Assembly: GCA_012513315.1 (NCBI GenBank)
Contig: JAAZCL010000026.1
Coordinates: 1-33,751, forward strand
DNA from: Bacteroidales bacterium
Lineage (GTDB): Bacteria; Bacteroidota; Bacteroidia; Bacteroidales; Dysgonomonadaceae
Direction of reading: 5' to 3'
Length of the DNA stretch: 33,751 nucleotides
Part shown: positions 20,352-20,724 of the stretch, one piece after another
Layout: the number at the start of each line of letters is the position of its first letter
Numbering within the stretch: position 1 is the stretch's first letter
Translations under genes and position numbers: made by a program
The notes under the pieces: model-generated
Seen by the model: the letters and a program-made list of their open reading frames with translations, nothing else
Database searches by the model: none
What the model was told of the DNA's origin: nothing

Positions 20352-20420
20352 CGTTTCTTTAAGAATATATAATTTAGTTCTCTAAGTATATATAATTTCG
20401 CTTCTTTAAATTTATATAAA
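20352..20420 (-). repeat. Three degenerate 22-24-bp direct repeats in hisG 5' leader
   Basis: Units at 20352-20375, 20376-20398 and 20399-20420 share a pattern of (c/t)TTCTNTAAG/A followed by TATATAA(TTT). They occupy nearly the whole space between the attenuator terminator and hisG and are very AT-rich. Confidence 0.5.
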
Positions 20421-20422
20421 AC

Positions 20423-20453
20423 AAAAAACCCGACTGATTTAATTCAGACGGGT
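20423..20453 (-). terminator. his operon attenuator terminator
   Basis: On the minus strand ACCCGTCTGA (20453-20444) pairs with TCAGTCGGGT (20437-20428), a 10-bp stem with one T-T mismatch and a 6-base loop. It runs into TTTTTT, then G and more T. It lies 36 bases after the leader-peptide stop codon and 74 bases before hisG, so it would terminate transcription before the structural genes. Confidence 0.88.
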
Positions 20454-20502
20454 GTATAAATATTTCCTACAGGATTGCACATATCTATCTCAACTCGCCT
20501 GA
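20444..20502 (-). promoter_or_regulatory. Candidate antiterminator pairing of the his attenuator
   Basis: UCAGGCG (20502-20496, the last base of the AGT codon plus the CAG and GCG codons near the leader-peptide end) can pair over 7 bp, with one G-U, with CGUCUGA (20450-20444). The latter is the left arm of the terminator, so the two structures exclude each other. A ribosome stalled on the His codons (20528-20517) would leave UCAGGCG free. A ribosome reaching the stop codon at 20490 would cover it. A competing TTGCA/TGCAA pairing (20508-20504 with 20479-20475) may act as the protector hairpin. Confidence 0.65.
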
Positions 20503-20546
20503 CTGCAAGTATCAAAATGATGATGATGGAATCTGTTTACTTTCAT
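20490..20546 (-). CDS. hisL: his operon leader peptide (four consecutive His codons)
   Basis: An 18-codon ORF, MKVNRFHHHHFDTCSQAS, with ATG at 20546 and TGA at 20490. The four adjacent CAT codons (20528-20517) are the classic signature of a regulatory leader peptide that measures charged tRNA-His, comparable in design to enterobacterial HisL with its seven His codons. It lies between a good promoter and the attenuator terminator, about 140 bases before hisG. The peptide itself needs no function; translation speed is the signal. The ORF is too short for routine gene finding. The symbol is given by functional analogy only, since sequence homology to hisL is not implied. Confidence 0.85.
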   Translation of the reverse strand: MKVNRFHHHHFDTCSQAS

Positions 20547-20565
20547 TTTTACTATTATTATACGG

Positions 20566-20592
20566 CAAAGATAATAGAATTATTTAAAACAA
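20566..20592 (-). promoter_or_regulatory. Promoter of the his operon
   Basis: On the minus strand TTG (20592-20590) and an exact TATCTTTG (20573-20566) are separated by 16 bases, slightly tighter than the usual 17-23. Initiation near 20559 gives only about a dozen bases before the leader-peptide ATG, consistent with a promoter dedicated to an attenuated leader. Confidence 0.7.
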
Positions 20593-20636: not shown

Positions 20637-20724
20637 AGTGAACTATTTCGTTAAATTCAGTGCACTATTTCTCTAACTTCAGTGTACCCCTTCCTTAACT
20701 TCAGTGAATCATTTCGTCTAACTA
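20637..20724 (+). repeat. Four tandem 22-bp repeats
   Basis: Units at 20637-20658, 20659-20680, 20681-20702 and 20703-20724 each start AGTG and follow a pattern near AGTGnACTATTTCnnTAACTTC. Unit 3 is the most diverged. The motif TAACTTYAGTGAACTATTT is shared with the flank of the 52-bp dispersed element at 19427-19478, so both belong to one family. The array lies between the his promoter and the divergent porin gene. Confidence 0.85.

Follow-up and report, generated by a model that had tools for sequence, protein, structure and literature searches.

The his operon of enterobacteria carries a leader with consecutive His codons, alternative pairings and a terminator ahead of hisG. For the phylum of the present locus, the idea of attenuation is already in print: clues to it before amino-acid operons were reported for Flavobacterium psychrophilum in 2021, together with a structured element before hisG that is conserved in Flavobacteriaceae and has no Rfam matches (PMC9723704), and leader-like small ORFs are described in Bacteroides thetaiotaomicron (PMC7366714). 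A paper on the his genes of the superphylum has a single mention of attenuation, which concerns Salmonella and E. coli, and the word "leader" is absent from it.

The element analyzed here lies in a 33,751-nucleotide stretch of Bacteroidales DNA (the window), ahead of a his operon with the order G D C B H A F IE (20347-13187, minus strand) in which all eight genes are present, as a previous reading made from the sequence only had claimed. The source assembly has 458 contigs and a completeness of 97.41%. By HisG, the closest named relatives are one Bacteroidales MAG (98%) and one Fermentimonas MAG (96%), which makes a Fermentimonas-like member of the Bacteroidales the probable source of the window. 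The element is very probably a ribosome-mediated transcription attenuator of this operon, similar in plan to the his and trp leaders of enterobacteria: it has a leader ORF with His codons, a terminator before the first structural gene, a competing antiterminator and, in modeling, the matching ribosome geometry.

The promoter, the 18-codon ORF with four His codons and the terminator before hisG that the sequence-only reading had described were all located, on the minus strand between 20592 and 20423 (Table 1). The TTG and the -7 box are a promoter of the Bacteroidota type; of 115 core loci (defined below), 104 have the motif TANNTTTG in the 85 nt that precede the first His codon, compared to 7.8 expected from shuffles, and the RNA would start near 20561. 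The terminator, ACCCGTCTGA-ATTAAA-TCAGTCGGGT, spans 20453-20428 (-) and, T-run included, lies 75 nt before hisG; despite a T:T mismatch its stem folds with -13.4 kcal/mol (z -4.67). A sigma-70 promoter scan and a simple terminator scan of the window listed neither the promoter nor the terminator, the latter probably because of this single mismatch. By eye, the region upstream of the promoter (20650-20710) also holds three imperfect plus-strand copies of AACTTCAGTG, and two imperfect direct copies of AAATTATATATNCTTANAGAA lie in the interval between terminator and hisG (20352-20402), where relatives have the segment R5.

Table 1. Features of the his leader and operon in the window
Feature	Position	Strand	Remarks
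Promoter, -33-like element TTG	20592-20590	(-)	Presumed Bacteroidota promoter type
-7 promoter box TATCTTTG (motif TANNTTTG)	20573-20566	(-)	Motif conserved in core loci
Leader ORF, MKVNRFHHHHFDTCSQAS*	20546-20490	(-)	18 codons + TGA
Four consecutive His codons, all CAT	20528-20517	(-)	
R1, CTTGC	20509-20505	(-)	Partner: R2
R2, TCAGGCGAG	20502-20494	(-)	Partner: R1 or R3
R3, ACCCGTCTGA, terminator left arm	20453-20444	(-)	Partner: R2 or R4; in many relatives also R5
Terminator loop, ATTAAA	20443-20438	(-)	In many relatives, extends the R5 pairing and is similar to the hisG start
R4, TCAGTCGGGT, terminator right arm	20437-20428	(-)	One T:T mismatch with R3
Terminator T-run	20428-20423	(-)	
Stretch holding R5 in relatives	20422-20348	(-)	R5 absent from the window
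hisG, first gene of the operon	20347-19490	(-)	PF01634, PF08029
hisD	19468-18077	(-)	PF00815; start codon uncertain
hisC, aminotransferase	18096-17077	(-)	PF00155; named by its place
hisB	17070-15982	(-)	PF00475
hisH, glutamine amidotransferase	15934-15356	(-)	PF00117; named by its place
hisA	15359-14619	(-)	PF00977
hisF	14526-13771	(-)	PF00977
hisI/hisE fusion	13774-13187	(-)	PF01502, PF01503

A short upstream ORF with at least three His in seven residues is present in 71 of the 80 named loci fetched with HisG, a set skewed toward close HisG relatives; the nine without it are L002 (where the contig ends 150 nt upstream), L022, L043, L045, L049, L054, L057, L073, and L078. A phylum sample drawn evenly comprised 252 genomes with hisG, and upstream regions were taken for 82, i.e., all 67 of the same class or order plus 15 others from the better HisG matches. 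Such an ORF was found in 67/67 of the class-level genomes (58 with at least four His), including L182, whose three His look like chance, and in 7 of the 15 other genomes. Over all 82 regions, at least three His were seen in 74 and at least four in 64, compared to 47 and 0 of 820 shuffles, while in a control with 12 other residues on the same regions the maximum was reached by Ser (18/82). Leaders of the core group conserve residues beyond the His run (FHTCxQAS); in those of other families the likeness is, by eye, confined to the run. A close relative (81% HisG; L022, L110) has no recognizable His leader, indicating that loss occurs inside the clade. The exact core pattern, searched in 296 genomes of the phylum, was found at 23 places in 21 genomes, 4 of them directly before hisG; the reversed control gave 21, and the matches other than those before hisG are therefore at chance level. 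A comparative-genomics survey of attenuation by Lopatovskaya, Seliverstov and Lyubetsky from 2010 is said to cover the Bacteroidetes and may already list the his leaders of the phylum.

The leaders of 116 loci, close relatives included, share a common core: R1 CTTGC, R2 TCAGGCGAG, R3 CCCGTCTGA, and R4 TCAGRCGGG. The pairings R1:R2 and R3:R4 are mutually compatible, and R2:R3 excludes both. In the window, UCAGGCG (R2) and CGUCUGA (R3), previously proposed to pair, form seven pairs, one of them G:U, and in relatives all three competing pairings covary. In an alignment of 46 sequences, with 500 shuffles per helix, 87.4% of cells were paired for R1:R2, 95.3% for R2:R3 and 95.4% for R3:R4, with 9, 9, and 21 double-change cells, respectively; for each helix, the share of paired cells, the count of double-change cells and the covariation score all exceeded those of every one of the 500 shuffles, and slid versions of the helices were 26 to 48% paired. 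The number of pairs with a double change was matched by 13, 464, and 211 of 500 shuffles, respectively, and is thus unusual for R1:R2 only, not for R2:R3 or R3:R4. In a swap test of R2:R3, the own partner gave -9.05 kcal/mol versus -8.05 for permuted partners, a value as low being reached in 0 of 5,000 permutations. A linked change, TCAAGCG / CGTTTGA / TCAAACG, is seen in L071, L075, and L076 at positions where most loci have TCAGGCG / CGTCTGA / TCAGACG or TCAGGCG, and families outside the core have different sequences in equivalent places (e.g., L171, GGTAAGC with GGCTTACC). Hence, the His-codon run and both stems for which the sequence-only reading had turned to relatives are kept there, with compensatory changes. 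That reading did not include the R1:R2 pairing within the leader ORF, the spread across the class, the R5 of many relatives or the clues already published for the phylum.

The proposed working begins with a ribosome translating the leader ORF. When histidyl-tRNA is scarce, it would halt on the CAT codons, leaving R2 free for R3 before R4 is made; with R2:R3 formed, the terminator would come too late and RNA polymerase would continue into hisG. When histidyl-tRNA is plentiful, the ribosome would reach the stop codon and cover R2, so that R3:R4 would form and transcription would end at the T-run. With no ribosome, R1:R2 would form in most relatives, again leaving R3 to the terminator. We infer stalling, termination and a response to charged tRNA-His from this arrangement. 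In equilibrium folding up to the T-run, the terminator was favored in 116/116 loci whatever the ribosome position, and the switch therefore needs cotranscriptional timing. Since attenuators decide during RNA synthesis, the RNA was folded as it is at the moment before R4 exists, with the ribosome modeled as covering 14 nt from the A-site codon on, in 104 loci (12 of the 116, with no recognized R2, were left out). The fold switched with the modeled ribosome position: R2:R3 exceeded 0.5 in 104/104 loci with the ribosome on the first or last His codon and in 0/104 with the ribosome at the stop codon, in line with the earlier proposal that a stall at the His codons frees R2 and a ribosome at the stop codon covers it. 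Without a ribosome, R2:R3 exceeded 0.5 in 30 and R1:R2 in 75 of the 104 loci. In the window, R1:R2 was weak under these conditions (0.03) and R2:R3 reached 0.95, i.e., its ribosome-free RNA would antiterminate, unlike that of most relatives.

Many relatives have a fifth segment, R5, downstream of the T-run and complementary to R3 plus the terminator loop, e.g., CCGTCTGAGTAAA with TTTACTCAGAC. In tests that, like the others of R5 reported here, are inflated by kinship among the loci, R5 was detected against shuffles (p <0.01) in 30 of the 45 loci whose HisG is less than 78% identical and in 2 of 34 close relatives. A fixed criterion (score cutoff, 7) gave R5 in 36 of the 46 named core loci below this identity, with 4.0 expected, in 28 of the 36 core loci from the phylum sample, with 8.6 expected, and in 11 of the 34 close relatives, with 3.1 expected. 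The window scores 6.4, below the cutoff, and its pairing with the hisG start is not in excess (p 0.83); its copy is an ordinary four-segment member. In a swap test with 55 R3 haplotypes, the own R5 partner gave -11.2 kcal/mol and permuted partners -8.06 (sd 0.30), with 0 of 5,000 as low. R3:R5 was paired in 81.6% of cells on alignment A1 (33 double-change cells) and in 94.7% on alignment A2 (31 double-change cells), the latter consisting of 36 loci chosen mostly for having R5. On both alignments, paired percentage and covariation score each exceeded those of all 500 shuffles; 104 (A1) and 101 (A2) of the 500 reached the number of double-change pairs. The distance from R5 to the start codon is 11 to 20 nt in 54 of 74 loci and greater, up to 36 nt, in the other 20; in 73/74, the R5 base opposite the next C of the terminator stem is unpaired with that C.

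R5 covaries not only with R3 (terminator arm plus loop) but also with the hisG start codon (R6). It pairs there as TTTACTCA with ATGAGTAAA where HisG begins Met-Ser-Lys and as TGTACTCA with ATGAGTACN where HisG begins Met-Ser-Thr. Because R5 pairs with both, there is a likeness between the hisG start and the terminator arm plus loop (CTGAGTAAA); over 83 distinct pairs of the core set, this similarity was 5.51 of 8 for the own start and 5.07 for permuted ones (sd 0.08; 0/5,000). On A2, 89.6% of R5:R6 cells were paired, with 12 double-change cells (0/500 shuffles for both), and the number of double-change pairs was reached by 58 of 500 shuffles; slid versions were 30 to 41% paired. Swapping among 49 R5 haplotypes gave -7.16 kcal/mol for the own partner and -5.19 for permuted ones (sd 0.27; 0/5,000). 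Tested against shuffles of the upstream stretch, with 10 of the 116 loci skipped, pairing with the start was significant (p <0.05) for loci with R5 in 27/35 of the named loci below 78%, 19/24 of the sample and 1/11 of the close relatives, and for loci without R5 in 0/8, 1/6, and 1/22, respectively. The two pairings sometimes disagree: in the L055 group R5 tracks R3 more than hisG, and in L131, L050, and L051 it tracks hisG more than R3.

In a first gate test on 71 loci, R3:R5 beat R3:R4 in 2, with median accessibilities from -20 to +12 of 0.61, 0.60, and 0.62. R3:R5 won in 35/71 without hisG codons, 4/71 with 15 nt and 2/71 with 30 nt of hisG, losing once these codons are included because the hisG start competes for R5. 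As the -20 to +12 stretch contained R5 itself, the measurement was redone on the start codon alone. When R4 was barred from pairing, leaving R3 available to R5, accessibility of the hisG start was higher than in the terminator fold in 64 of 70 R5 loci, by >0.1 in only 29 (medians, 0.52 versus 0.42); for loci without R5, the same comparison gave 28/36, by >0.1 in 6 (medians, 0.61 and 0.58). In these models, the pairing of R3 with R5 brings only a modest opening of the hisG start. With R3 merely held by R2, the start remains closed (0.39), and a second level of control therefore needs R5 to take R3 from R2. The displacement would use the free terminator loop as a toehold.

In many relatives, R5 most likely masks the hisG start as long as the terminator holds R3, and releases it once R3 takes R5. 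With histidine plentiful, R5 would cover the start codon in those transcripts that slip through; with histidine scarce, R2 would hold R3 off R4 until R5 is made, and R5 would then take R3 via the free loop, leaving the hisG start open. For many relatives, though not for the window, sequence comparison suggests that transcription and hisG translation answer to one sensor; if true, a single tRNA sensor would set both the transcription of the operon and the translation of hisG. That many Bacteroidia have a two-level his switch on one RNA strand, in which R3 imitates the hisG start, and that the clade of the window has lost the second level, is in our judgment an evenly balanced proposition. Structure around the start codon is reported to tune initiation in Flavobacterium johnsoniae (PMC6847099), and flavobacterial ribosomes do not use Shine-Dalgarno sequences (PMC9976891).

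The R5:hisG start pairing of many relatives, and the existence of families with His leaders lacking a strong terminator, would also fit a leader that acts on hisG translation initiation via hairpins, the T-run being incidental; this is very unlikely, however, given that the terminator stem and T-run are kept and covarying and that the window has no R5. R3, R5, and R6 might instead be DNA sites of a regulator and not RNA partners, and R3/R5 as well as R5/R6 do form inverted repeats, but changes at terminator-loop positions are matched by changes in R5 even at the level of one genome (L200, GCACAT with TTGTGC). R5 as a DNA operator was rejected in view of this covariation, and we give the regulator-site explanation next to no probability. 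It is likewise extremely improbable that the ORF encodes a conserved His-rich small protein with a function of its own, followed by an ordinary terminator. The residues conserved outside the His run in the core group (FHTCxQAS) would speak for such a protein, yet they coincide with R1 and R2, which pair with compensatory changes, the leaders of other families are alike in the His run only (by eye), and the promoter lies directly 5' of the leader ORF.

Other leaders were noticed in the course of the analysis. L204 to L209 (L203 is similar) form a His-leader family without a strong intrinsic terminator, in which the His codons are one arm of a hairpin and the end of the ORF is the other, e.g., CACCAC with GTGGTG in L208; in L114, L115, L117, and L121, again with no strong terminator, a hairpin lies over the leader stop codon (ATTCCTC with GAGGAAT). 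Among trpE-family loci, 10 of 30 have a WWW leader and a terminator-like hairpin (L221, L226 to L228, L230 to L233, L236, and L237). By eye, a Phe/Tyr-rich leader with a terminator-like hairpin precedes pheA in 6 of 16 loci (L267, L269, L272, L273, L276, and L280), and Ile/Val leaders precede ilvD in at least 2 of 19 (L250 and L252). Across 18 such trp, phe, and ilv leaders, R5-like pairing was found in one (L276, p 0.02), the others having p ≥0.06.

As the sequence-only reading had anticipated, the His_leader family (RF00514) misses the leader of the window, which scores 19.9 bits (E 0.37) where the gathering threshold requires 49; alignment to the model runs from end to end but stays below threshold, reaching 30 to 35 bits in L197, L028, and L053 among 16 relatives searched. 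At the Rfam gathering thresholds, the window gives only a tRNA, and the leader matches no family in the window or the 16 relatives. Compared with RF00514, the Bacteroidia leaders have different pairing sequences, a promoter of presumed Bacteroidota type and, in many relatives, R5. The textbook enterobacterial device appears usual before hisG in the class Bacteroidia, though below threshold for Rfam (window and 16 relatives). The two reports from the same phylum cited above describe, in the parts available to us, no His-leader anatomy, pairings or R5 (PMC9723704, PMC7366714), and, among the titles and abstract openings listed from an open-access library, none names an R5-like segment in a his leader; R5 pairing alternatively with R3 or the hisG start in his leaders is new to us. 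The Bacteroid-trp RNA (RF01692), a Bacteroidetes cis-regulatory motif in Rfam (PMC2864571), concerns trp, not his, and 0 of 10 trp leaders of the class have R5-like pairing at p <0.05 (terminator chosen automatically). The covariation of R5 with both the terminator and the hisG start points to a combined transcription/translation switch. In Bacillus subtilis tlrB (yxjB), a ribosome stalled on a leader peptide relieves both a terminator and a hairpin hiding the start region of the gene (PMC6851288). There, the signal is an antibiotic and not an amino acid, and, in the part of that report available to us, no overlapping antiterminator is identified; unlike tlrB as described there, the Bacteroidia his leaders share one strand, R3, among terminator, antiterminator and R5.
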